A stretch of 38,597 nt of DNA from Mesorhizobium sp. ZC-5 (GTDB lineage Bacteria > Pseudomonadota > Alphaproteobacteria > Rhizobiales > Rhizobiaceae): positions 1 through 38,597 of the forward strand of contig NZ_JAOWPT010000022.1 of NCBI RefSeq assembly GCF_025753855.1, in the 5' to 3' direction. Below, in pieces: positions 1,830 to 28,974 of the stretch; positions within the stretch are counted from its first letter, which is position 1; every line of letters starts with the position of its first letter. The translations under genes were made by a program, and so were the position numbers. The notes below the pieces were generated by a model. That model had not been told where the DNA came from, did not search any database, and saw nothing but the letters and a program-made list of their open reading frames with translations.

Positions 1830-2990
1830 TTATGGACTCTTCTCGCGCGGCCGCGCTTTGGCACCTCCGGGAAGCTTGTTTTGCGGAGCCGCACAGAGAG
1901 CGCCGTAACAAACCTTGCCACCCCTGTAGTTGGCCAGGGCCTGCAGGAGATCCGGTAGAAGGTGCTCTTTCAGTTCGTCCGGGATAGGCTCCGGACCGTC
2001 CAGCGACGTCAGTGCCAGTTCGACCAACTCGATCGCGCGATCGTTGTTGCCGTTCTCGTGATAGTACCGGGCGACTGCCGGATAAGACTGGGACTTAGGG
2101 CTGTCGCCGTGCGGAGGATTCAGTGCCAGGATGTGTTCGGACAGCTCCTTGCCCATCGCGAAGCGTTCAGCAGGGGGAAGGCGCGAATGGTCATTGGCCG
2201 GATGGAAAAGTTGGTCTAGCGCCGAAACCATCCAATCCTCGGAGTTTTTGTCGATCGCGTCGCGAACCAATTGGCGTATGACGGGCAAGCCGGTCCACAT
2301 GTCTTGGATTTTGTGCAGCAACAGATGCGCATGAGCCAGGCGGAAATTGATGTCGTCCGGCATCAAGGCGATGCCCTCTTCGATTGCCCAGAGCGCCGTC
2401 TTCCAATCTTCCAACTTCACCGCCGCCCAGAATCTGTCATCGATCGGCTTTTTCAACGCTTGCTCGCGCGCCATAGGTTCGCTTGTGGCGAGCCGCTCCG
2501 TATCGGCGGCTTTAGCTTTATCGCTGGTGCGCCAGCTGCCGTTCAGCACTTCCGGCAAAACCTCATCGAGTTGGCTCGGATGACCGATAAAAGCGATGTG
2601 GCCGTCTCGGTCGACCACGAACGAGGTCGGAATCCCGACGGAAAAGCTGGGTTCCCTCCAAAGCTTCTTCATTTCGCCTGTGAAGTCGAACCCGATCCGA
2701 TAGTTCAGATTCGAGCACTTGTCGGTCAACCATGCGTCCAACTTGCTTCGGGCCTCAACTTCCGTTGGAGCGTCTTCATCCGCCGCTATCCCGACGACCT
2801 CAAGTCCGCTGTCCTTGTATATTTCCTGGAACAGCATCAGTTGGAGCATCTCCGTCGAACATGGTCCGCACCAAGTTGCCCAAAATTCAACGACATACAC
2901 TTTGCCGGACTGGAAGTTCGCAAGGGGCTCGCCACGCAGCCAGTTCTCCACTTTGATCGAAGGAGCCGGTGACTCCATCCGCAATACCAT
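1830..2990 (-). CDS. TlpA-like thioredoxin-fold protein with C-terminal helical repeat region
   Basis: A 386-residue protein. Residues about 10-165 form a TlpA/AhpC-TSA-type redoxin domain with the active site WATWCGPC near residue 40 and a typical GIPTSFVVDRDG strand, the cis-proline element of thioredoxin folds. Residues 200-360 are helical and TPR-like. No signal peptide is visible, so it is probably cytoplasmic, unlike classical TlpA. The start at 2990 (MVLRMESPAP) has GGAGAG five bases upstream; a GTG at 3026 is an alternative. It sits behind a sigma-54 promoter and two NifA sites, and is the first gene of a possible transcript running to the SyrA-like gene. A nodule thiol-redox or metal-centre maturation role is inferred, not shown. 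Confidence 0.75.
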   Translation of the reverse strand: MVLRMESPAPSIKVENWLRGEPLANFQSGKVYVVEFWATWCGPCSTEMLQLMLFQEIYKDSGLEVVGIAADEDAPTEVEARSKLDAWLTDKCSNLNYRIGFDFTGEMKKLWREPSFSVGIPTSFVVDRDGHIAFIGHPSQLDEVLPEVLNGSWRTSDKAKAADTERLATSEPMAREQALKKPIDDRFWAAVKLEDWKTALWAIEEGIALMPDDINFRLAHAHLLLHKIQDMWTGLPVIRQLVRDAIDKNSEDWMVSALDQLFHPANDHSRLPPAERFAMGKELSEHILALNPPHGDSPKSQSYPAVARYYHENGNNDRAIELVELALTSLDGPEPIPDELKEHLLPDLLQALANYRGGKVCYGALCAAPQNKLPGGAKARPREKSP

Positions 2991-3159
2991 CTTGCTCTCC
3001 AAAGCTGTTGCCGCAGGTTTCACCACCTAATGCCCGAGCTTGTTTCCCTCTTAGAGAGGGGCACAAGGGTTCAAAGAAAGGAGAGCTATCGTCTCGCGCA
3101 TATGCATGCAGTCAGCCTTCACTCAGTGTTACCACATCACAATCTGCAACAGTCAATTA

Positions 3160-3174
3160 GCAAAGGCCGTGCCA
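3160..3174 (-). promoter_or_regulatory. Sigma-54 (-24/-12) promoter for the TlpA-like gene
   Basis: Minus strand reads TGGCAC-GGCCT-TTGC, a perfect match to the RpoN consensus TGGCAC-N5-TTGC. It lies 170 bases upstream of the ATG at 2990. The leader contains a small hairpin (CCCTCT-CTA-AGAGGG near 3046-3062). Confidence 0.85.
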
Positions 3175-3243: not shown

Positions 3244-3288
3244 TGTAGCGAACCTGACATGTTGTCTGTCGCTGTCAGGTTTTGGACA
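3244..3288. promoter_or_regulatory. Two NifA upstream activator sites (TGT-N10-ACA)
   Basis: TGT-AGCGAACCTG-ACA at 3244-3259 and TGT-CAGGTTTTGG-ACA at 3273-3288 both match the NifA consensus exactly, 70 and 99 bases upstream of the -24 element. The first differs from the nifH site at 14420-14435 at only two of 16 positions, suggesting a shared origin. Confidence 0.8.
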
Positions 3289-17072: not shown

Positions 17073-17087
17073 GCAAGACGCGTGCCG
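17073..17087 (-). promoter_or_regulatory. Sigma-54 promoter, leftward
   Basis: Minus strand CGGCAC-GCGTC-TTGC, one mismatch from TGGCAC-N5-TTGC. A perfect NifA site lies 80 bases upstream. The whole module (about 17060-17190) is a diverged copy of the one before the P450 cluster (27670-27800). Confidence 0.7.
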
Positions 17088-17167: not shown

Positions 17168-17183
17168 TGTCCACCTTCGGACA
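17168..17183. promoter_or_regulatory. NifA upstream activator site
   Basis: TGT-CCACCTTCGG-ACA, an exact TGT-N10-ACA, 80 bases upstream of the sigma-54 promoter at 17073. It could in principle also act on the divergent promoter at 17751, though that is 570 bases away. Confidence 0.7.
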
Positions 17184-19034: not shown

Positions 19035-20519
19035 ATGCAATCCTCAGCAAGCCTGCTTCAACGCCAGAAGCAATCTATGGTAGCATCGCCTCAGCTGATT
19101 GCGTCGATCCGCTTGCTGCAACTGGCGCGTGCCGAACTGCATCAGTTCGTGGAGCAGGAACTCGAGAAGAACCCGCTTTTGGAGCCTGCTTCAAACGACG
19201 GCGAGCCTTTTGGCGATGTTTTGCCGATGTCGGGGGAGGATCAGATCGGCGCACGCGAAAACGACATTGATAGACCGACGAGCGCCGGGGCCTCCGAACG
19301 GCTCGGGGATTGGAAATCGCTGCGCAACACGACGAACAACCCGCCGGGTAATCGCCCTACCTTGGACGAGTTTACCACCTCCACCGAAACATTGCACGAC
19401 CATGTCGCTGGCCAGATCGCGCTCACGCCATTCACACCGCAGGAGCGGCTGATTGCTGGCCAGCTTGCCGCTCATCTGGAAGACACCGGCTATCTTCAGG
19501 CACACCTTTCGGAGCTGGCCGAGCGCCTAAAGGCCCGGGAGGCCGATCTGGAGCGGGTTCTCGCAACCTTGCAGCAATTTGATCCACCGGGGATTTTTGC
19601 TCGAACTCTCAGCGAATGCCTCGAGATACAGTTACGCCAGCGAGACCGGTTCGACCCGGCGATGGCAGCCTTGGTTGCCAATCTCGAGCTGCTTGCACGA
19701 CGCGATTTTCAGGCATTGAAGCAGCTTTGCGGCGTCGATCAAGAAGACCTTCTCGACATGTTGCATGAAATCCGTGCGCTCGATCCCAAGCCTGGAAACC
19801 GATTCCAATCCGGAGCGCCGGAATCCATCATACCCGACGTCTGGGTCACACCCTCGCCGGGAGGAGGATGGCAGATCGAACTTGATCCCGACACGTTGCC
19901 CAAGCTGCTGATCAACCAAACCTACTTGGCCGAAGTCTCGCGTCAAACCGACCAAAATCCGAAAGATCAAGCATTTCTCAACGAATGCCTGCAAAACGCG
20001 AACTGGCTGATCCGCAGCCTCGATCAGCGCGCCAAGACAATTCTTAAGGTTACGGCTGAAATCGTCCGACAGCAGGGTGCCTTCTTGGAACATGGCGTCG
20101 CCCATCTGCGGCCTCTCAATCTCAGGACTGTCGCCGAAGCGATCAACGTGCACGAGTCGACCGTGAGCCGGGTGACCTCAAACAAGTACATGCTAACCCC
20201 ACGCGGAGTGTTCGAACTGAAGTATTTCTTCACTGTCGCACTTGTCTCCTGTCAAGGCGGCGAGGCGCACTCCGCGGAAGCTGTCCGCCACCGGATCAAA
20301 GCGATAATTGCCGCAGAATCCCCGGGTGACGTGCTCTCCGACGATGACATCGCTGTCCGGCTGAAGAAAACCGGCATCGATGTCGCGCGCCGTACCGTCA
20401 CAAAATATCGCGAGGCGATGAACATCCCCTCCTCCGTACAACGGCGCCGGGAAAAGCGCTTATGGCTCAGCGGCAATCAGGGCACGGCGCCTGGTACCGC
20501 TGACCAAAGCGGCGCTTAA
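19035..20519 (+). CDS. rpoN: RNA polymerase sigma-54 factor
   Basis: 494 residues, the normal length. The glutamine-rich activator-interacting region I is at the N terminus (LLQRQKQSMVASPQLIASIRLLQ), the core-binding domain in the middle, the helix-turn-helix near residue 370 (LRTVAEAINVHESTVSRVTSNKY), and the RpoN box ARRTVTKYRE near residue 455. It directs transcription from -24/-12 promoters with NifA. The linker after region I is acidic and less conserved. It follows prxS and is likely the symbiotic second copy (rpoN2) of a strain with a chromosomal rpoN. Its stop overlaps the nifQ stop on the opposite strand. Confidence 0.97.
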   Translation: MQSSASLLQRQKQSMVASPQLIASIRLLQLARAELHQFVEQELEKNPLLEPASNDGEPFGDVLPMSGEDQIGARENDIDRPTSAGASERLGDWKSLRNTTNNPPGNRPTLDEFTTSTETLHDHVAGQIALTPFTPQERLIAGQLAAHLEDTGYLQAHLSELAERLKAREADLERVLATLQQFDPPGIFARTLSECLEIQLRQRDRFDPAMAALVANLELLARRDFQALKQLCGVDQEDLLDMLHEIRALDPKPGNRFQSGAPESIIPDVWVTPSPGGGWQIELDPDTLPKLLINQTYLAEVSRQTDQNPKDQAFLNECLQNANWLIRSLDQRAKTILKVTAEIVRQQGAFLEHGVAHLRPLNLRTVAEAINVHESTVSRVTSNKYMLTPRGVFELKYFFTVALVSCQGGEAHSAEAVRHRIKAIIAAESPGDVLSDDDIAVRLKKTGIDVARRTVTKYREAMNIPSSVQRRREKRLWLSGNQGTAPGTADQSGA

Positions 20520-21145
20520 TCCAAAGCGATCCCGTTCTTGATCCGTGCGAGGCGACTTTCGCCTTCTTCCGGGCCGAAGCAGCTTTCGAAATCGTTGCAT
20601 TCCCGGCAACTCGGTGTGGTGCATAGGGAAAAACCTTCAGCCTCGCAGAGCTTGCGGTAAAAGTACTTCTTCCATCTCATGTTTTTGGTATTGCCAGCCG
20701 CCAGCGTCGGGAAATGCGTGGCAAGCAAGCGGCTGACCTCGGCCCGATTGAAAAGGCCAAGGTCCTGCCACAGATGGTCATTGCGCATGGCACGCCGGGC
20801 GATGATCTTGGCGAACCGGACGCTCGCGAGGTCGCCCGGCCGGGCATGCGCCAAAAGCAGGCCGCACAGGAGTTCTTCCTCCAGATCCGGCTCGGCCTCG
20901 TCCACCTCTTCCAAAGCGAATGCTCCGATAGGGATAGCAGGGAAGCCGCCGGACAGGACATCGCGCAGCTCGGCGCGCGAAAGGCCGGTTGCTTCCGTTG
21001 CCGTCGCCTCGCCGGCCTCGAGTTCCTCGAGCGCACATGAAAGCACACAGGCAAGCACATGCTGGTCAAATCCGCTTTCCAGCTCGATCCGCAGCCGTTG
21101 GCGGTCGATGAACCAGCCATAGTGACGGGCGAACATAGGTGCCAT
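20516..21145 (-). CDS. nifQ: NifQ, molybdenum donor for FeMo-cofactor synthesis
   Basis: 209 residues from MAPMFARHYGWFIDRQRL at 21145. The C terminus carries the NifQ metal motif C-x4-C-x2-C-x5-C (CTTPSCRECNDFESC), preceded by MRWKKYFYRKLCEAEGF, as in all NifQ proteins. NifQ is an iron-sulfur-molybdenum protein that supplies Mo to NifEN/NifH. The reading frame continues upstream without a stop into a decayed fdxB copy, so a longer fusion product is possible. It is convergent with rpoN, the two stop codons overlapping by four bases, with no room for a terminator. Confidence 0.93.
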   Translation of the reverse strand: MAPMFARHYGWFIDRQRLRIELESGFDQHVLACVLSCALEELEAGEATATEATGLSRAELRDVLSGGFPAIPIGAFALEEVDEAEPDLEEELLCGLLLAHARPGDLASVRFAKIIARRAMRNDHLWQDLGLFNRAEVSRLLATHFPTLAAGNTKNMRWKKYFYRKLCEAEGFSLCTTPSCRECNDFESCFGPEEGESRLARIKNGIALD

Positions 21146-21484
21146 TCTCCTCTGGTTTGTCCCATCAAGCCATGCCGCGACCGGGTCCGCCGCAACAGGG
21201 CGTCTGTCAGTTCTTCGGGCAGACGAGGGCGCAGACTGGGCAGCCAATGCAGCCGCGCAGCGGTCGAGAACCATGATCATGCGATTGAGCTCGCCGGCGA
21301 CATCGCCCTCGCCGTCGCGGGCGCCGAGAATTTCACCCGCGTCATCGAAGCTGTAACGATGCAAGACCGCGCGCGAGCAGACGTTGAAACAGCGGCCGCA
21401 GCCCATCCAGGTCATGCCGTCGGTCGCGGTCAGATATCGCGGCATTCGTCTGGAGCCGTCGCGGGTGACGAAAGCGCTATGCAT
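21146..21484 (-). pseudogene. Degenerate second fdxB copy, in frame with nifQ
   Basis: From an ATG at 21484 the frame gives HSAFVTRDGSRRMPRYLTA, closely matching intact FdxB (SSAFVTRDGSKWMPEYLTA). The first ligand of cluster one is lost (TTCIGCGRC becomes MTWMGCGRC). Compared with the intact gene there is one base deleted near 21265, after which the second cluster is read out of frame as CAAALAAQSAPSSARR. That shifted frame has no stop and runs straight into nifQ. So fdxB' cannot make a ferredoxin, but a hybrid fdxB'-NifQ polypeptide of about 320 residues could be translated. Confidence 0.8.
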
Positions 21485-21570
21485 CGGGAATTCTCCGACG
21501 CACCGAACTCTCTCGCCCTTGCTGAGTACCCGTCGTGCGAACGCTTTGCTGAAGCCGGCATCCTCGCCGT

Positions 21571-21585
21571 GCGAGCGGCATGCCA
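21571..21585 (-). promoter_or_regulatory. Possible sigma-54 promoter for fdxB'-nifQ
   Basis: Minus strand TGGCAT-GCCGC-TCGC, one mismatch in the -12 element (TCGC for TTGC), 87 bases before the fdxB' start, a leader length like that of nifH. No TGT-N10-ACA is seen between it and the monooxygenase gene. Confidence 0.4.
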
Positions 21586-21771
21586 AACGCCGCCTGCGGC
21601 TAGGGGCCAGGGAACAGTCGACGGAGGCTGGGCACCGCATTCGTTTGAATTCCCTTTCTGACTTCGACCCCGAGTCTATCGCGAGCAGCGACCCCCAGAC
21701 GCTCCGTGCCCTGGTGTTGACCGCGCTTTGAAACGATCAAGCAGCAGAGGTGAGAGTTCAAGCCGTTGCGG

Positions 21772-22824
21772 TCAACCGCCGGCATGCGCGAGCGACTTGT
21801 TGATCGCTGGAATGATCTTGTCGCCCCAAAGCTCGATCTGCCGCAGCATCGTCTTCTGGTCGAAATCCCCCAATTGGGTCTGAATAGCGATCTGGTCCGG
21901 TTTCAAGATATCGATTTCTTCCAGCAGGCGATCAATCACGCGATTCACGCTGCCGATCGGCAGGTTCTGGCGCAGAGTTTCGAATGAGAGATCCTGCTGC
22001 GTGGGCGTTTCCTGCAGGAGATAACCGTCCAGGCTCTGCTGGCGGCGCTGATGCAGTGCTTCGGACAGCCGGCGCTGGAAGCGGGCATTGTCGAGATAGC
22101 TGTTGATCTCGGCCTCGTCGTCGCTGGCATAGCAGCAACGCAGCAGAGATAACTTGGCGTCCGTGACATTCTTGCCTTCGCAAGCCGCCGTCTTCTCGAT
22201 TGTTTCGCGCAGCGCGCTCAAGGTCTCCAAGCCGTTGTGGAATGCTGTGACAAAGAAATTGTGTCCTTCGCGATAGGCCCGGCCTATGCGTGCTGGCCCG
22301 CTGGCGATCCAGATCGGCGGGGTCGGCTTCTGGACGGTGCGCACCGAAATCGCCGTCGGGGGTATGTTCTGATACTGGCCGTTGTGCTCGAAGATGTCTT
22401 GGTTGAGGCCCTTCAGAAGGATGTCCAAGTGTTCCGAAAAGAGGGCCGGCGCCTCCTCAATATTCACGCCGAAGCGCTCGAACTCGAATTGCTGGTATCC
22501 CGAGCCGACGCCGAGCTCGAGACGGCCGTTCGCGACGATGTCGGCGAAGCCGATCTCGGAAAGCAGGCGTTGCGGTTGATAGAGCGGTAGCACGCACACA
22601 GCAGTGCCCAGGCGAATGGTGCTCGTCACGCCGGCGCAGTGCGCCACCATCATCAAGGGCGAGGGAATCAGGCTGTAGTTGTTGAAGTGGTGCTCCGCGA
22701 ACCACGCGGTACCGAAGCCTGCCTGCTCGGAAACGACGGTCTGTTCGATGGAGTTGCGGATGACGCTGTCGCACGATTGATGATAGCCGCGCTGGGCGGC
22801 CAGGATGAAGGTCGCGAATTCCAT
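21772..22824 (-). CDS. Luciferase-like (LLM class) flavin-dependent monooxygenase, y4vJ type
   Basis: 350 residues from MEFATFILAAQRGYHQ at 22824. It has the bacterial luciferase-type TIM barrel: EQAGFGTAWFAEHHF, LPLYQPQRLLSEIGFADIVANGRLELGVGSGYQ and KPTPPIWIASG. These enzymes use FMNH2 and oxygen to hydroxylate or cleave organic substrates. By order and type it corresponds to y4vJ of NGR234 (recalled, not checked). It is the last gene of the P450 cluster, separated from the SDR gene by about 308 bases. The substrate is unknown. Confidence 0.88.
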   Translation of the reverse strand: MEFATFILAAQRGYHQSCDSVIRNSIEQTVVSEQAGFGTAWFAEHHFNNYSLIPSPLMMVAHCAGVTSTIRLGTAVCVLPLYQPQRLLSEIGFADIVANGRLELGVGSGYQQFEFERFGVNIEEAPALFSEHLDILLKGLNQDIFEHNGQYQNIPPTAISVRTVQKPTPPIWIASGPARIGRAYREGHNFFVTAFHNGLETLSALRETIEKTAACEGKNVTDAKLSLLRCCYASDDEAEINSYLDNARFQRRLSEALHQRRQQSLDGYLLQETPTQQDLSFETLRQNLPIGSVNRVIDRLLEEIDILKPDQIAIQTQLGDFDQKTMLRQIELWGDKIIPAINKSLAHAGG

Positions 22825-23132
22825 GGTGTGTCCTTGTCTTACAAAGGGAGTTTGCCGATCGGAGGATGCGCTGGGCATGCGCATCAGGCGTTGGCCGCGA
22901 TGTCGATCCAGCCCTTCGCGTCGGCGTGGTCCTGCGGCAAACCGCGCGCCATTCGGCGGTTGCAGGCGCGCGCGGAGCGGTTGAGCTGCTTCGACCGGTG
23001 GGGACCTTTTCGTCATCGCCGAAGATGACATCTTCGATCGCAGGCAGTGCGGCGGCACGCTGCCGGGGCCTTTAGCCTGGACGTCCTTCGCTTCGATGAG
23101 CCGCAGCCCATGGCTTGGCGAAAAGTCGACAA
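22825..23132 (-). other. 308-base gap between SDR and monooxygenase genes
   Basis: The monooxygenase frame stays open back to a TTG at 23136 that overlaps the SDR stop, but the added 104 residues show no luciferase homology and have unusual composition. Another frame holds LPAIEDVIFGDDEKVPTG, which resembles coding sequence but matches nothing I recognise. It may be a relic of a small gene lost from the operon. Confidence 0.35.
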
Positions 23133-24734
23133 TCAACGCGCGGCCTCCGCTAAATACTCGCTATCGAGTTCGCTGGCGTTTCCCGCATCGCCGAACGAGG
23201 TCCAGCCGCCGTCGACGTAGAGGATGGAGCCGTTGACGTATGAGGCGTCAGACGAGGCCAGGAAGAACGCCGCCTCAGCGACGTCTTCCGGCTGTCCCAT
23301 CCTCCCCATCGGGATGCGTCGTCTGATCGCTCTCGCGTCGATGCGGCCGACCTTCGCCAACTGAGCAACCCCGGCCGTGCGGATGTAGCCAGGAGCGACG
23401 GTTGCAGTCCGAATGCCGACCGGCCCGAGTTCGGCCGCCATGCATCGGGTCAGAATGTCCAACCCCGCCTTGGAGGCGCCGTAGGCATGGCGCGACGCCA
23501 CTGGCAGAAAGCTGTTGATCGATCCAAGGTTGAGGATCACGCCGCCAGGGCACATCGCCTTGATTGCCTCGCGCATACAGGTGAAGGCGCCGATTAGATT
23601 GACGTCAAGGACGTGTTCGATCTGTTGCGGTATCTGTTGGGTTCCCGACAACGAGGTGTCGGTGACCGCAGCACCGTTGACGAGGACATCGATGCGCTCG
23701 AAGCGTCCTCGCACCTCCTCGAACAGCGCCACCACCTCGCTCTCGACGGTCACGTCCACGGATTTGGCCGGGTTCTCGCCGTCGAGCGCTGCAGCGAGCT
23801 CTGCCGCTGCAGCGCCATCTTTATCAGCAATCACGACGGTATCGCCGTTCGCGGCAAAGCGGCGAACGACCGCCGCCCCTATGCCGTTTGCGCCACCCGT
23901 GACGAGCACGATCCGCGCGTCGGTGCGTTCGGCCGGACGGCAGAGTTCGGCCAGGGGCGTCCCATCCACCGGCGGGTGCGCATCCCCCGGCTGGTTGAAT
24001 TGCACCCAGCCGCCGTCGACCGCCAGCACGGATCCGGTGATGTAGCGCGCCTGCGGGCTGGTCAGAAAACGCACCGCGAGGGCAATCTCGTCCGGGCGCG
24101 CCAAGCGCCCCATCGGCACCCGGCGCCGCACTGCCGCCAGGTCCATCTTGCCCACGCGTTCCAGTTTTGCCAACATCGGCGTGCGCACGTAGCCCGGCGC
24201 TACCGCCGTCACGCGAATGTCGCGAGAAGCCCACTCGCATGCAAGCGACTTGGTCAACGAGATCAGCCCCGCTTTCGAGGCTGCGTAAGCGTTGCGCTTG
24301 GGATTGGCGACCAAGCCCGACATCGAAGCGACGTTGACGATGGCGCCGCCCGGACTCATGCGCCTCGCCGCTTCGCGGGCCATGACGAACGGTCCAATCA
24401 AGTTTACTGCCAGGCCGAGCCGGAAGGCGTCAACACCAGTGTCGACCGTCGCAGCCATGGTGGGTCCCGTCGCTGCGTTGTTGATAAGGACGCCGATCCG
24501 CGCGAACTGTGCTTCGATCCGGCCGTAAAGCGCGAGGATATCCTCCTCTCGCGAGACATCGCATTCGATGCCGAAATGCGGGTGGCCGAGACGACGGGCC
24601 AGTTCAACGACGCCGCTGCCAGGAAGGTCCACCGCAACAACAGTGTCTCCATCCCTGGCATGAATATCGACCAGAGCACGGCCGATCCCGCCCGCGGCGC
24701 CCGTAATGACGACAATGCGTCCTGCCTGCTTCAT
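23133..24734 (-). CDS. Tandem two-domain short-chain dehydrogenase/reductase, y4vI type
   Basis: 533 residues made of two complete SDR domains. The first (1-250) has the nucleotide motif TGAAGGIG and catalytic Y-AAS-K; the second (270-510) has TGGANGIG and Y-GAS-K, each followed by a PMGR(L/M)-type segment and a G-G-W terminus. Each domain should bind NAD(P) and could oxidise or reduce alcohols and ketones. Fusion of two SDRs is unusual and matches the NGR234 plasmid protein y4vI (recalled). The ATG overlaps the TGA of the remnant upstream (ATGA), so translation was once coupled. It probably acts after P450 hydroxylation. Confidence 0.9.
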   Translation of the reverse strand: MKQAGRIVVITGAAGGIGRALVDIHARDGDTVVAVDLPGSGVVELARRLGHPHFGIECDVSREEDILALYGRIEAQFARIGVLINNAATGPTMAATVDTGVDAFRLGLAVNLIGPFVMAREAARRMSPGGAIVNVASMSGLVANPKRNAYAASKAGLISLTKSLACEWASRDIRVTAVAPGYVRTPMLAKLERVGKMDLAAVRRRVPMGRLARPDEIALAVRFLTSPQARYITGSVLAVDGGWVQFNQPGDAHPPVDGTPLAELCRPAERTDARIVLVTGGANGIGAAVVRRFAANGDTVVIADKDGAAAAELAAALDGENPAKSVDVTVESEVVALFEEVRGRFERIDVLVNGAAVTDTSLSGTQQIPQQIEHVLDVNLIGAFTCMREAIKAMCPGGVILNLGSINSFLPVASRHAYGASKAGLDILTRCMAAELGPVGIRTATVAPGYIRTAGVAQLAKVGRIDARAIRRRIPMGRMGQPEDVAEAAFFLASSDASYVNGSILYVDGGWTSFGDAGNASELDSEYLAEAAR

Positions 24735-25070
24735 GAGAATTTCTCCGCGACGAACCCCAGCGATCTCAGCCCATCAACGTTGGGCGGCAAATGATGCGTC
24801 GCGGGTAAGCAGCACGTCCTGATGACGGCCAGTTGCAGGCCCGGATAGACGACGTGCGTTCCGGCAGCGGCCCACTCCCGATTTGGCAGCCGAACCTGGT
24901 GAGGGACGAGGATAGGGCTGGCCTCGATGGGCGACGCTGCCGAGGTCCCGCACATCGATAACACAAGCGTCGGGGCCGGGCTCATGGTGTGGACAGAACG
25001 CTGTCACGATCACGCCGTCGCGGGCAGAAAGGCATGCTGTCGGACGTATCGTCATCGGCCAGGCTTGCAC
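24731..25070 (-). pseudogene. Remnant resembling the C terminus of a carotenoid/lignostilbene oxygenase
   Basis: One frame (from 25070) gives DGVIVTAFCPHHEPGPDACVIDVRDL, the other (to 24731) ASPILVPHQVRLPNREWAAAG. Joined by a shift near 24935 they resemble the last strands of RPE65/carotenoid cleavage dioxygenases (…VLDARDL…P-x-x-x-V-x-L-P-x-R-V). The N-terminal three quarters, including the iron-binding histidines, are absent. The end overlaps the SDR start by ATGA, typical of a former operon member. The family call is weak; the remnant status is stronger. Confidence 0.35.
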
Positions 25071-25699
25071 AGGGATCGGTGTGGCCTTGCAAAATTGTCG
25101 TAGTCTGTTGTTCCCCCCGGCGGTGCGGCGTTCGAACCTTTGAAGGCATCATGGCGAGAAGGAATGCGACGCTTCCCGAGCTTGTAGACCGGATCATCCG
25201 GATGTGGTGCTCCAATCGGCTGTCGAGGGCCGAACCGTTCTGCCTCAAGGACCGCTGGTGGGATCTGCTCCTCGAGCCAATCGTAGACCACTGTCCGTTC
25301 GGCAATGCGCCACTCTCCTTCCCTCTTCTGAAACAGATCGCAGTAACGGCCGCATAGGAGCGTCTGGCGCACTTCTCCGCTTTCGTCCGGTGCGCGTTGC
25401 AGCCCGGTAAAATAGCTCTCGACGGCCGCCTCTGCCGAGCCAATAAATTCGATCAGGATGTTCGTGATCTGATGGATGTTGCGCGGTCCGGTCTTGAAGA
25501 CACCGAGCGCAAACTGGATGAAGCCCTCTGCCGAGCCGCAATAGGCCCCGTGATTGTCATGTGCATCGGGCCAGTACGCGCTGCGCAGCGCCGCCTCATC
25601 CGCGCGGTCTATCCCGCGGCAATACCGATAGAGGCAGTCGCGGATCGCCTCACGGTGGAGTAGTTCGGTAATTTTCGTCTGGCCCATCGGCTCTGTCAC
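25052..25699 (-). CDS. NTF2/SnoaL-like protein of the P450 cluster
   Basis: 215 residues starting at GTG 25699 or ATG 25687. Residues 10-150 fit the SnoaL/NTF2-like cone fold used by scytalone dehydratase-type enzymes and ring-hydroxylating dioxygenase beta subunits ([58 protein letters not shown]). Such proteins catalyse dehydrations, isomerisations or act as binding partners. The C-terminal 45 residues (after YKLGKRR) lack family resemblance and may be a tail created by rearrangement. It follows the ferredoxin by 170 bases. Substrate unknown. Confidence 0.78.
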
Positions 25700-25867
25700 T
25701 CATTCTGTGATTGGAAAACGTGTTTCGCGAACCTCGCCCGGCCGTTTGCGCATCGTGGGGCTCACCTCTCGATGCCGGAGCTGCCGCCTGCACAGTTGGA
25801 TGAGGACAGTGATGGGACAGAGGCCGCGTGCCACCCTTTCTTCCGTGTGCGGTCACATGGTCCCCCT

Positions 25868-26113
25868 TCAAGCGCGCCAGGCTCTCGGTTGAATGACGTC
25901 CGATTCAACCCGAGCAGCCAGGGCGCGGCCGAGTTCCAGCGCACGTTCGGGGCAGGATCGCGCGCCTCGCGATGCAAGCAGTTCCTGGCCTTCCGCAACT
26001 TCAATGTCACCGGACAGGATGTAACCATCTTCATCAAGCTTGAAGATATCCGGCGCTTGCGCCGCGCATCGCGCGTGACCCTGGCATTTGGAATTTTGGA
26101 CGATGATACGCAT
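25868..26113 (-). CDS. P450-partner ferredoxin (3Fe-4S/4Fe-4S, single cluster)
   Basis: 81 residues beginning MRIIVQNSKCQGHARC. The motif C-x2-H-x2-C with a later C-P (GARSCPERALEL) is the pattern of small ferredoxins that donate electrons to actinobacterial and rhizobial P450s; histidine at the second position usually means a 3Fe-4S or unusual 4Fe-4S cluster. It lies 46 bases after the P450 stop on the same strand, so it is almost certainly the redox partner. No ferredoxin reductase gene is visible in the window. Confidence 0.9.
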   Translation of the reverse strand: MRIIVQNSKCQGHARCAAQAPDIFKLDEDGYILSGDIEVAEGQELLASRGARSCPERALELGRALAARVESDVIQPRAWRA

Positions 26114-26159
26114 GCCGCTGCCTCCATTGTCTGTGCCCCCGGCTCGGGGCGGGGCTTGG

Positions 26160-27377
26160 TCAGGACCAGTCCAGGATCAGATTTTCGATCCCGAACACAT
26201 GGCCGCCGCAGGTGATGGGTGCCGTGCCCTTCTTGATCCGGAAGGCCGGTATGCGCGCCAGCCACTCCTCCAGGCCGATGATAATCTCCCGCCGGGCCAG
26301 GTGTGAGCCAAGGCAACGGTGGGGACCATAGCCAAAGGCGGCGTGGCGGTTGTCCTCTCGCGCCAGATCGATCGTGTTTGGGCAACCAAATTCCGCCGGG
26401 TCACGATTGGCAATCATCGTGGCGCAGGAAACATAGTCCCCCTTACGGATCGGCGCGCCTTCGAAGTCGATATCTTTTGTTGCAACGCGGATCAACTGAA
26501 TGGGCGGATAGGCGCGCAGCAACTCTTCGGCTGCGAGCGCGATCCGGTCCGGTTCGCTGCGCAGCAGTTCCTGATCCTTGAGGTTGCGTGCGAGATAAGC
26601 CAGGTCAAAGCCTATCGCTGCTGCGACCGTGTCAAGTCCCGCGACGAACACAAGCACGCCGATGCCACGGATCTCCTCGTCGGTCAGCCGGCGGCCCTCG
26701 ACCTGTGCCTGCACGATGAAGGTCATGAGATCGTCTACCGGCTCCTTGCGGCGATTGGTTGCAAGTTCATCGATGAACGTCACAATCGTCCGGGCAGCCA
26801 CAGGTCGTTTCACACCGTCGCCGTGGAGCAGGTCTTTCGCCCATCCAACAAATGTGTCGAGCCGGTGATCCGGCAACCCCAAAAAGCGAAGGAAGATGCT
26901 GACCGTGAAAGGAAAGGCAAACTCCTTCATGACATCGCAACTTGTGCCCGATGCGGCGATACTATCGATCAGCGTGACCGCTCGCTCGCGGACAGCCGGC
27001 TCCAACACCCTCACCCGCTTTGGCGAAAGCAGCGGACTGAGCAGTGAGCGAAAGACGCCATGGGCCGGCGGATCCAGTTCAAGCGGGATCGTCGGCCAGG
27101 TTTCGCCTAGCACGGAGGAGAAGATGCTGCGATGGCTGGAAAAGGTTTCAGTGTCCTGCAGCACCTTGCGCTGGTCTGCGGCGCGGGTGATGACCCAGGT
27201 CCCCCGGCCATCTTGCGTGTTGTAGGGGGAATAAAAGATCGGCGGCCCGTCATGGGCGCAAGCGACAGCTGCATGCGGATCCCCGTTGGGCGTCGGTGAC
27301 ATGCCTGGTGACGTAAACAGGCTGAAGTCCCTCACCATTTCGGGCGGGACATGATCTGGAACCAGGTTTGTCGTCAT
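26160..27377 (-). CDS. Cytochrome P450 (CYP127-like, y4vG type)
   Basis: 405 residues, soluble bacterial class I type. Oxygen-activation helix AGLDT at 246-250, ExxR motif E-E-L-L-R at 284-288, haem-binding loop FGYGPHRCLG with C355. AGGAG precedes the ATG at 27377. The neighbouring genes (ferredoxin, double SDR, luciferase-like oxygenase) match those around CYP127A1 (y4vG) of NGR234, which is nodule-expressed; this is from recall. It would hydroxylate an unknown, possibly terpenoid or aromatic, substrate. The gene is intact, and a sigma-54 promoter lies upstream of the preceding small ORF. Confidence 0.93.
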   Translation of the reverse strand: MTTNLVPDHVPPEMVRDFSLFTSPGMSPTPNGDPHAAVACAHDGPPIFYSPYNTQDGRGTWVITRAADQRKVLQDTETFSSHRSIFSSVLGETWPTIPLELDPPAHGVFRSLLSPLLSPKRVRVLEPAVRERAVTLIDSIAASGTSCDVMKEFAFPFTVSIFLRFLGLPDHRLDTFVGWAKDLLHGDGVKRPVAARTIVTFIDELATNRRKEPVDDLMTFIVQAQVEGRRLTDEEIRGIGVLVFVAGLDTVAAAIGFDLAYLARNLKDQELLRSEPDRIALAAEELLRAYPPIQLIRVATKDIDFEGAPIRKGDYVSCATMIANRDPAEFGCPNTIDLAREDNRHAAFGYGPHRCLGSHLARREIIIGLEEWLARIPAFRIKKGTAPITCGGHVFGIENLILDWS

Positions 27378-27394
27378 TCGGTTTCTCCTGAACG

Positions 27395-27631
27395 TCAGGT
27401 GTACCTGCGCTCGATTGAGACTGCACGGCCGGTCATGAAGTCGATTGCCGACGGGTGGTAAAATTCCCGCTCAGGCGCGATGAGGTTCTGTTGCGAGGTG
27501 CAGCCGATCTGCGCACCGGCGCGGATGAGACCGGTCGCGAATTCAAGCGGCAAGGGCAACCACGTCGTCTTCAGGTCCTTGAGGGACCGCGCCGTCTTAT
27601 ACGCACTGATTTTGAGAGGCTGTTGTATCAC
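27395..27631 (-). CDS. Small conserved-looking ORF ahead of the P450
   Basis: 78 residues if translated from the GTG at 27631, which has GGAG nine bases upstream; contains LEFATGLIRAGAQIG and EREFYHPSAIDFMTG. It is 17 bases from the P450 start and 51 bases from the sigma-54 promoter, so it is the first reading frame of the transcript. No family is recognised. Predicted features: one amphipathic stretch, no signal peptide. It could be a regulatory or accessory peptide of the pathway. Confidence 0.5.
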   Translation of the reverse strand: MIQQPLKISAYKTARSLKDLKTTWLPLPLEFATGLIRAGAQIGCTSQQNLIAPEREFYHPSAIDFMTGRAVSIERRYT

Positions 27632-27681
27632 CGCTGAACTCCGTGAGGCCTTCTGACGTGCCGTGTGACAAAACCATCGAG

Positions 27682-27696
27682 GCAAGTTGCGTGCCG
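27682..27696 (-). promoter_or_regulatory. Sigma-54 promoter of the P450 cluster
   Basis: Minus strand CGGCAC-GCAAC-TTGC, one mismatch to consensus and the same first-base change as the promoter at 17073. Confidence 0.65.
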
Positions 27697-27783
27697 GATT
27701 GGCGCACTGACGGCGCTGCACGACTTCTGCGTACGAGCGGCCCGGCCCCGTGCCACCCTTTGGGGTCTGGCTTTCGACATTCT

Positions 27784-27799
27784 CGTCCAGTTTCAGACA
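27784..27799. promoter_or_regulatory. Degenerate NifA site of the P450 cluster
   Basis: CGT-CCAGTTTCAG-ACA, aligned with the perfect TGT-CCACCTTCGG-ACA at 17168 and 88 bases upstream of the -24 element. The first T has become C, so NifA binding may be weak. Confidence 0.45.
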
Positions 27800-28536: not shown

Positions 28537-28974
28537 TTGTGCCCGGAGACGCCATGGGGGTCGGGCGGGATCTTGGCGCACCGAAAGCGATGTCTTTTCA
28601 GTGGCCTGTCCCGGCTTTGGTACTTTTTACTACCAAGCCGCTTGATGCTCGCTGTTTCCTATGCCTGGAGCGGCGCGCCAATGCCGTCAGCGAACACCTT
28701 TGCAACTTTGCTAGCGCTCGGGATTCTCCCCTCGATCTGCGGATTCTACTGCACAATTCGCGCTGTTCAGCATATCGAGGCTTACAAGACGCAAGTCATC
28801 GAATCGAGCGAGCTGTTCTTTTCCGCCCTCTTCGCAGCCGTTTTCTTCGGCGAATGGCTCACAGGTACAGGAATGCTTGCGGCATTGGCCATCATTGTCG
28901 GTGCGTTGATCACATCCATGCCTGAGCGCCGTGTCATCTCCAGGCAAGTTCGCCCAATTGCCGAAAGGGAGTAG
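28537..28974 (+). pseudogene. C-terminal fragment of an EamA/DMT-family transporter
   Basis: From about 28640 the frame reads as the last three to four membrane helices of an EamA transporter: TFATLLALGILPSICGFYC, then AYKTQVIESSELFFSALFAAVFFGEW and TGMLAALAIIVGALITS, the classic C-terminal pattern (E near S-A-L-F-A-A-x-x-x-G-E). The N-terminal half of about 170 residues is missing and the 30-odd residues ahead of it are unrelated. It cannot make a complete ten-helix carrier. Confidence 0.75.

Follow-up and report, generated by a model that had tools for sequence, protein, structure and literature searches.

Related operons

Among described systems, the one nearest to the gene cluster considered here is the nifQ-dctA1-y4vGHIJ operon of Sinorhizobium fredii NGR234. 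There, nifQ and dctA stand ahead of the P450 gene (its product is named CYP127A1), a ferredoxin gene is absent, and a sigma-54 site with a perfect NifA upstream site (UAS) precedes nifQ. Work of Fumeaux from 2011 reportedly found the operon dispensable for nitrogen fixation on the hosts that were tried.

The nifQ-fragment-msi332-msi331 locus of Mesorhizobium loti R7A has a P450 and a possible ferredoxin, the only two genes that the published table gives for it, behind a -24/-12 promoter, TTGGCACGACTTTTGAA, that differs in sequence from the one described below (PMC3538637). Its expression is nifA2-dependent: an msi332::lacZ fusion gave 446.6 Miller units, vs. 14.6 in a nifA2 deletion, where the no-fusion background was 10.0 (PMC3538637). 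This dependence may be partly indirect, since genes without NifA promoters also fell in the mutant (e.g., aatA, from 2455.8 to 16.2; PMC3538637).

A third relative, on pMHb of Mesorhizobium huakuii 7653R (MCHK_RS32340-32355), has the same five genes as the cluster described below, with a shorter leader and a P450 83% identical to ours. Its nodule expression is coordinate with nif/fix genes: in abiEi-mutant nodules the P450, NTF2, SDR, LLM, and nifQ genes were down 7.1-10.2 log2 units alongside fix/nif genes, with one sample per strain. (An LLM gene in a bacteroid table, MCHK_4854, was considered and set aside; the cluster's own is MCHK_8187.) Together these expression data fit NifA/sigma-54 control, with indirect effects possible.

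The cluster in Mesorhizobium sp. ZC-5

The window, meaning the whole 38,597-nt stretch of Mesorhizobium sp. ZC-5 DNA that was analyzed, contains these features:

27784-27799, minus strand: NifA upstream site with one mismatch, TGT-N10-ACG, located 103 bp before the sigma-54 site
27764-27779, minus strand: another NifA-like site with one mismatch, TGT-N10-ACC; M. huakuii 7653R has a pair of this kind too
27682-27696, minus strand: predicted sigma-54 -24/-12 promoter, CGGCACGCAACTTGC, its position conserved in relatives
27378-27681, minus strand: probable untranslated leader, holding a "small ORF" (27395-27631); no family match, poor conservation
26160-27377, minus strand: P450 (CYP127A-type), first gene (Pfam p450 PF00067, 2.6e-23)
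25868-26113, minus strand: ferredoxin, P450 partner, CxxHxxC...CP type (Fer4_15, 2.3e-12)
25052-25699, minus strand: SnoaL_4/NTF2-fold protein, probable dehydratase/isomerase (SnoaL_4, 3.5e-19)
23133-24734, minus strand: tandem SDR with two SDR domains (NCBIfam PRK06484, 716.8 bits, above the curated cut-off of 713)
21772-22824, minus strand: LLM class flavin-dependent monooxygenase, luciferase-like (Bac_luciferase, 5.3e-60)

The cluster adds one more member to the operon already known as y4vGHIJ in NGR234 and as msi332-331 in M. loti. Orthologs of the NGR234 P450 (74% identity), SnoaL (75%), SDR (63%), and LLM (81%) proteins are encoded in the same order on one strand, with a candidate NifA/sigma-54 promoter upstream whose UAS is one base off; this confirms the match to NGR234 pointed out in the sequence-only reading of this DNA. 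That reading called the pathway unassigned, which holds for its substrate (no physiological one is named in the literature found), while the operon itself had been published before. The nifQ-dctA head of the NGR234 type, a mark of the subtype rather than of the family, is not present: nifQ lies downstream of the cluster, a ferredoxin gene is present, and dctA had no match in the cluster or in the loci of the two closest strains.

Five of the six linked genes originally listed are confirmed by family matches, and all five reading frames are intact in the window; dN/dS for the cluster genes is about 0.12-0.51 (window vs. five relatives). The LLM start is placed at the ATG at 22824, matching the M. 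amorphae annotation, rather than at a TTG further upstream. The sixth, the 78-residue small ORF, is not conserved. It matched no family in profile searches, and in tblastn searches of 94 related loci two had a full-length match, 8 a partial one, and 84 none; both full-length matches are in the strains closest to the window. Lacking a family and conserved at full length just in these two, it is probably better read as leader.

Promoter

The promoter lies outside the interval originally assigned to the cluster, which ended at 27631; the proposed combination of a sigma-54 site and a degenerate NifA site is nevertheless present, and positionally conserved. The window by itself proves little here; the promoter pattern with one mismatch allowed occurs 25 times in it against 13.3 expected (four matches are exact). 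The real evidence is conservation at one position across relatives. A sigma-54 site was found in 35 of 41 non-redundant rhizobial upstream regions, and in 29 of the 41 it was accompanied by a perfect TGT-N10-ACA; over 200 shuffles the corresponding means were 0.66 (maximum 5) and 0.015 (maximum 1). Two loci were left out of this comparison, L039 (a second, broken copy in genome G455) and L084 (282 bases upstream). The sphingomonad loci discussed below served as a control, and neither of the two having upstream sequence carries such a promoter (0/2; the third, L119, begins at the P450). The UAS is one base off in the window's lineage, and a perfect TGT-N10-ACA stands at the place aligned with 27784-27799 in three genomes (G455, G514, and G438). 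By this comparison, predicted NifA/sigma-54 control of the operon is well supported.

Distribution and gene content

The P450 gene was found in 13 of 258 family genomes (12 full, 1 broken) and nifD in 17, with both in 12; five nifD genomes thus have no P450, and one P450 genome no nifD. One genome (G532, 37% identity) was dropped from this tally.

Of 101 relatives, 80 were kept. All named loci were found via the P450, so that its constancy is by construction; that of the ferredoxin is not. Complete loci number 48 of the 80 named ones if the ferredoxin is counted when present, or 46 if an uninterrupted one is required. On the first count, 32 do not keep all five genes under the criteria applied, although some SnoaL failures merely reflect a variable tail. 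Nothing beyond the P450 and ferredoxin is kept in Rhizobium tropici CIAT 899 or in three Mesorhizobium loci; one catalytic motif is missing in 23 of 65 SDRs; and copies are broken in genome G431, in R. beringeri, and in S. medicae, as is the SDR of R. etli. The P450 and ferredoxin are thus a constant core, with downstream genes often lost or broken, a pattern that is new here. Several findings speak against a fixed six-gene pathway: the P450-ferredoxin-only loci, the NGR234 type without ferredoxin, and the unconserved small ORF indicate that later steps are dispensable or variable.

A constant core with variable extensions is what might be expected if the P450 destroyed a host defense compound in nodules, the other genes being optional. 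Decay in some symbionts (clover, Medicago) could then track host chemistry, and work on bean bacteroids has put forward a role of this sort for P450s in nodules, which may be other P450s than this one. Decay does not simply follow the host, however: the full set is kept in M. mediterraneum, M. muleiense, and S. meliloti 4H41, and Rhizobium sp. T1470, a Medicago sativa isolate, has a full-length P450. We regard detoxification as rather unlikely. We also asked whether decay goes with the clover-medic-chickpea legume clade, and gave the idea up, since M. mediterraneum and M. muleiense, both chickpea strains, have the full set and T1470 a full-length P450.

The broken copies, and the Fix+ phenotype reported for NGR234, might also be explained if the operon were a relic linked to nif, of no current use and breaking down in many strains. 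The intact frames and dN/dS values in the window, and the strong expression of orthologs in nodules, argue against this, and it seems very improbable.

Enzymes and possible role

With barely better than even confidence, we read the cluster as a bacteroid-expressed, NifA/sigma-54-driven operon for P450-led oxidation of a hydrophobic compound supplied by the plant. NifA would bind about 100 bp upstream and activate sigma-54 polymerase at 27682-27696, so that the cluster genes would be made together with nitrogenase. The P450, with electrons from its ferredoxin, would hydroxylate the substrate, most likely terpenoid- or steroid-like. As judged from the protein families, which also suggest the order and chemistry of the steps, the tandem SDR would oxidize the resulting alcohol. 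The Asp-His pair of the SnoaL-like protein would serve to eliminate water or to shift a double bond, and a second oxygen would come from the LLM. That all of this concerns one substrate and includes a rearrangement, as the sequence-only reading had it, is likewise an inference. The P450 and ferredoxin would form the core, with the SDR, SnoaL, and LLM proteins as extensions of the route that most lineages have and some do not. If bacteroids do modify a host metabolite under NifA, the chemical traffic in nodules would comprise more than ammonia and carbon, by way of an operon found in many rhizobia and turned on with nitrogenase in the strains studied.

Properties of the individual proteins are as follows. 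The P450 has its heme motif, FGYGPHRCLG, at residue 348 and AGLDT at 246, and putative substrate-contact segments are conserved. One listing has CYP127A3 as hydroxylating testosterone; CYP127A3v1 is the name given to the M. japonicum P450 in PMC8197338. The ferredoxin is of a single-cluster type, with CxxHxxC in all 83 sequences examined, and its solved relatives include the ferredoxin of a P450 143 fusion. The SnoaL protein weakly matches LinA (2.8e-5) and a scytalone dehydratase-like chain (1.6e-4); its D31 and H76 are invariant (26/26). The tandem SDR has Ser-x12-Tyr-x3-Lys at both 137 and 405. The LLM is LuxA-like, with E44-H45-H46 invariant in 21 of 21. Predicted structures were poor for the SnoaL protein (mean pLDDT 47.4) and the LLM (35.2).

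Camphor-type oxidation uses P450cam, a dehydrogenase, and a luciferase-like Baeyer-Villiger enzyme. The cluster has a similar P450-dehydrogenase-LLM logic, and the nearest solved structures to its P450 are P450cam/CYP101. Its ferredoxin, however, differs in type from the 2Fe-2S putidaredoxin, and its LLM matches 3,6-diketocamphane monooxygenase just weakly (4.4e-6), so a camphor-type reading was rejected.

The P450-ferredoxin pair might instead serve oxygen handling or low-oxygen adaptation, and not a specific metabolite. A comparative regulon study files a NifA-regulated cytochrome P450 (cpx), maybe another P450, under microoxic adaptation. This would leave unexplained both the co-expressed SDR, SnoaL, and LLM and the conserved putative substrate-contact segments, and we consider it highly unlikely.

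In the rhizobial gibberellin operon, P450s, a ferredoxin, and an SDR act together, and there are prenyl synthase and terpene cyclase genes. The P450, SDR, and ferredoxin of the cluster resemble its tailoring enzymes. Family searches found no terpene cyclase or prenyl synthase among the cluster's genes, and a gibberellin-type operon with a polyprenyl synthase and a terpene synthase is present separately on contig C7 of the same genome, upholding the distinction from that operon first made from the sequence. These likenesses, that second operon, and a symbiosis-linked distribution would be in keeping with biosynthesis, in which the cluster, like the gibberellin operon, would provide the plant with a bacterial signal or a hormone-like compound, starting from an internal precursor that genes elsewhere in the genome supply. 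Against this, a scaffold-forming enzyme was not found in the cluster, and two Sphingobium genomes have the same P450-ferredoxin pair next to an acyl-CoA catabolic operon; biosynthesis is, we think, an improbable role.

Sphingomonad relatives

The P450-ferredoxin pair also occurs in sphingomonads without the remaining cluster genes, the active-site segments of the P450 being near-identical to the rhizobial ones. In a P450 tree, three sphingomonads fall among rhizobial sequences; the branch that puts them there has modest support (87/90) and the outgroup branches are very long, which is why we read no direction of transfer from the tree. A search for nifD in the three, run with no positive control, was empty.

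Both Sphingobium loci have the pair next to genes for an acyl-CoA dehydrogenase, a CoA-transferase, a dehydratase region, an aldehyde dehydrogenase, and an MFS protein. Together with the shared pair and its near-identical segments, these catabolic neighbors favor a plant-derived substrate and offer a route to it. It is possible, although we put this forward tentatively and would sooner doubt it than not, that sphingomonads and rhizobia share the pair for one widespread plant compound, which the former would degrade for growth; the latter would have put the first step under NifA and joined to it a dehydrogenase, a dehydratase, and a flavin monooxygenase. Bacteroids would then clear or alter a host metabolite at just the time when they fix nitrogen. 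The sphingomonads make the substrate question testable in culturable free-living bacteria, nodule-free. Their P450 is divergent from the neighboring acyl-CoA operon, and may serve another route.

Remote homologs of the LLM and SnoaL proteins, at about 27-32% too distant to build on, are adjacent in sphingomonads.

Gene content and known relatives

The operon is a further member of an already known rhizobial kind: as the sequence-only reading had noted, a cluster of the same type exists in Sinorhizobium fredii NGR234, where it adjoins nifHDK. In the window the five enzyme genes, P450 first, are intact:

21772-22824, minus strand: LLM monooxygenase, intact
23133-24734, minus strand: tandem SDR, intact
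25052-25699, minus strand: SnoaL_4 protein, intact
25868-26113, minus strand: ferredoxin, intact
26160-27377, minus strand: P450, intact
27395-27631, minus strand: small ORF, no family match

The same reading counted six linked genes, of which the small ORF is doubtful. Among 94 related loci, tblastn with its 78 residues gives a full-length hit in two, from the closest strains (L040 and L041), and a partial one in eight, and a 54-residue piece is matched in one plasmid record, of M. amorphae CCNWGS0123; 27395-27631 is better read as a leader than as a gene. The closest named P450s are those of Mesorhizobium sp. YC-39 (100%) and M. amorphae CCNWGS0123 (99%). Across the five cluster genes, dN/dS is about 0.12-0.51 for the window lineage against five relatives (four for SnoaL). 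The window is one 38.6-kb contig of a 6.3-Mb genome.

In the NGR234 arrangement dctA lies upstream of the P450 gene and the promoter is ahead of nifQ, whereas the window has a sigma-54 site directly upstream of the P450 gene's leader; the window cluster also includes a ferredoxin, for which none of the five examined loci of the dctA type (L008, L021, L035, L036, L037) gave a match. A functional study of the NGR234 cluster, Fumeaux 2011, reportedly found polar mutants to be Fix+ on several hosts. The proposed difference from the rhizobial gibberellin operon is borne out: another contig of the same genome (C7) carries P450-P450-SDR-P450-prenyl synthase-terpene synthase genes, in the order of the gibberellin operon, so that the window cluster is a separate system.

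A NifA-regulated cytochrome P450 (cpx), which may be another P450, is listed for several Rhizobiales in the available part of PMC4999443. The open-licence full-text literature searched, as far as its accessible text goes, names no physiological substrate for the operon; nor did we meet in it a core that stays constant while its extensions vary, the sphingomonad pair with its neighborhood, or a promoter set conserved in position across genera.

Two neighboring frames may be noted. A short EamA-transporter-like ORF (28537-28974, plus), oriented opposite to the cluster and upstream of it, has one domain matched and may be a truncated gene. A single open frame at 20516-21640 (minus) combines a partial, below-cut-off match to nif-specific ferredoxin III (residues 57-131) with NifQ (196-356), and may represent a remnant of fdxB joined to nifQ.

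Distribution and constancy

Among 258 genomes drawn from the window's family, the P450 (counted at at least 63% identity) occurs in 13 (12 full, one broken) and nifD in 17; 12 genomes have both genes, five have nifD but no P450, and one (G281) has the P450 without nifD. Among 297 genomes of the order, four including the window's own have a P450 at at least 79%, and two more match at 36-37%; nifD is present in 47, of which 44 are outside the window's family. Taken together, these counts indicate that the gene set tracks symbiotic rhizobia rather than nitrogen fixation in general. At E 1e-60 the P450 matches 115 plasmid records, 14 with an identity below 60%.

Gene content was compared in 80 named loci, all found via the P450, whose constancy is therefore by construction. 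The ferredoxin comes after it in 80 of 80. Intact P450, SnoaL, SDR, and LLM genes all accompany it in 48 (46 if the ferredoxin must be uninterrupted too), a count in which some SnoaL failures reflect a variable tail only. Three Mesorhizobium loci, three sphingomonads, and R. tropici CIAT 899 have only the P450 and ferredoxin, and R. etli CFN42 has these with SnoaL and an SDR remnant. In the clover symbiont R. beringeri TP37 the P450, SnoaL, SDR, and LLM are each matched in more than one frame, and in S. medicae ml29 the P450 match starts only at residue 161; sigma-54-like sites persist upstream in both. Host-linked decay has counter-examples: S. meliloti 4H41 retains all five genes, and the P450 is full-length in Rhizobium sp. 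T1470, an isolate of Medicago sativa.

One genome (G455) carries the P450, ferredoxin, and SDR a second time in broken form (L039), about 160 kb from the copy whose P450 is intact and roughly 6 kb from nifH.

Upstream sites

The window sites are as follows, a one-off NifA upstream site (UAS) being one base away from the perfect TGT-N10-ACA:

27682-27696, minus strand: sigma-54 site, CGGCACGCAACTTGC
27784-27799, minus strand: one-off UAS, TGT-N10-ACG, 103 bp upstream of the sigma-54 site
27764-27779, minus strand: second one-off UAS, TGT-N10-ACC

Such pattern matches prove little within one window alone; the real evidence is their recurrence across relatives. Upstream sequence usable in 91 loci reduced to 43 non-redundant stretches, 41 of them rhizobial (Microvirga included). 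A sigma-54 site lies within 700 bp of the P450 in 35 of the 41, and in 29 it has a perfect UAS 60-200 bp upstream of it; 200 dinucleotide shuffles gave means of 0.66 (maximum 5) and 0.015 (maximum 1), respectively. The NifA/sigma-54-type promoter claimed for the cluster is thus well supported by comparison, but the window's own UAS is one-off. Three relatives have a perfect palindrome at its place, and a one-off pair like that of the window recurs in M. huakuii 7653R (TGT-N10-ACG at 101 bp, TGT-N10-ACC at 77 bp). No sigma-54 site or UAS was found in the two Sphingobium upstreams scanned.

Three of the six site-less rhizobial upstreams (L035, L036, L037) show the NGR234 arrangement, in which dctA immediately precedes the P450; NGR234 has its promoter, with two perfect UAS, ahead of nifQ. 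A fourth (L108) has nifQ directly upstream and a sigma-54 site at 948 bp, without a perfect UAS. The remaining two are L067 and L068.

Two further sites lie elsewhere in the window. A perfect sigma-54 site at 3160-3174 (minus; TGGCACGGCCTTTGC), with two perfect TGT-N10-ACA (3244-3259 and 3273-3288), reads toward a redoxin-like ORF (1830-3026); an identical promoter in M. loti R7A is listed as facing no annotated genes (PMC3538637, available part). At 17073-17087 (minus), CGGCACGCGTCTTGC has TGTCCACCTTCGGACA about 96 bp upstream (17168-17183) and reads toward the opposite strand of a Fic-domain gene.

Nodule expression of orthologues

In abiEi-mutant nodules of M. huakuii 7653R, the accessible text of PMC8436566 gives changes, from one sample per strain, of -10.19 log2 units for a P450, -8.59 each for an NTF2-family protein, a short-chain dehydrogenase, and a flavin oxidoreductase, and -7.12 for nifQ; fixA, nifT, nifZ, and rpoN drop with them, as do many other genes. 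These five genes, MCHK_RS32340 to 32360, were assigned to the cluster by gene order and product, the M. huakuii sequence record examined bearing different tags. So far as that text goes, the data show coordinate nodule expression, as distinct from NifA binding.

In M. loti R7A, where msi332-msi331 (P450 and possible ferredoxin) are the orthologues, msi332::lacZ nodules gave 446.6 Miller units in the wild type, 273.5 without nifA1, and 14.6 without nifA2, the background there being 10.0 in strains that lack a fusion (PMC3538637, in part). In the same paper, loss of nifA2 also lowers aatA, which has no NifA promoter (2455.8 to 16.2), but not msi083; the fall of genes without NifA promoters counts against a direct reading of the msi332 dependence. 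Since the fusion left msi332 active, the study, in the part available, is silent on the need for it.

Predicted chemistry

The window P450 has the motifs FGYGPHRCLG and AGLDT; the strict heme pattern fits 79 of 93 P450s examined, the other 14 reading FAxGPHRCLG. Among solved structures, P450cam and other CYP101 enzymes come nearest to it. The ferredoxin belongs to the CxxHxxC...CP type. The SnoaL protein gives weak matches to LinA and to a scytalone dehydratase-like protein; its D31 and H76 line up with the catalytic Asp and His in LinA and do not vary in 26 of 26 sequences. Both halves of the window SDR have Ser-x12-Tyr-x3-Lys; one such motif is missing in 23 of 65 SDRs, always from the C-terminal half among the 53 listed. 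The LLM resembles LuxA, and its E44-H45-H46 is unchanged in 21 of 21 sequences. From these families we infer the reaction order P450, SDR, SnoaL, LLM. Agematu 2006 reportedly screened activities in E. coli rather than assaying physiological function. It is cited where the available part of PMC8197338 lists CYP127A3 with hydroxylation of testosterone, which hints at steroid- or terpenoid-sized substrates.

Sphingomonad relatives

Sphingobium sp. 15-1, S. chlorophenolicum NBRC 16172, and a Rhizorhabdus MAG have the P450 at 77-79% and the ferredoxin at 66-69%; SnoaL, SDR, and LLM genes are absent from the three stretches examined, and in whole genomes of the Sphingobium relatives SnoaL and LLM homologues are remote only (at most 43 and 35%). 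Putative substrate-contact segments, placed by alignment to P450cam, are nearly the same in these three sphingomonads and in rhizobia (e.g., SIFASALGESWPMIPLELDPP, YPTVQMIRVAT), making the same or a similar substrate likely, with identity to the window there of 0.78-0.81, about the same as in the rest of the P450. In the P450 tree, whose root is unreliable, the sphingomonads fall among rhizobia with modest support.

In each Sphingobium locus, acyl-CoA dehydrogenase genes (three in L118, one identified in L116) run divergently from the pair, together with genes for a class III CoA-transferase, a dehydratase-region protein, and a reductase of the alkenal type. The other flank has aldehyde dehydrogenase and MFS transporter genes, and in L116 the ferredoxin is followed by an M20-peptidase-like gene. 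The Sphingobium P450 may serve the adjacent acyl-CoA operon or another route.

In three sphingomonads (loci L135, L136, L137) remote LLM and SnoaL homologues adjoin each other, hinting that the two families may work together; in L135, CoA-transferase and enoyl-CoA hydratase genes lie beside them.
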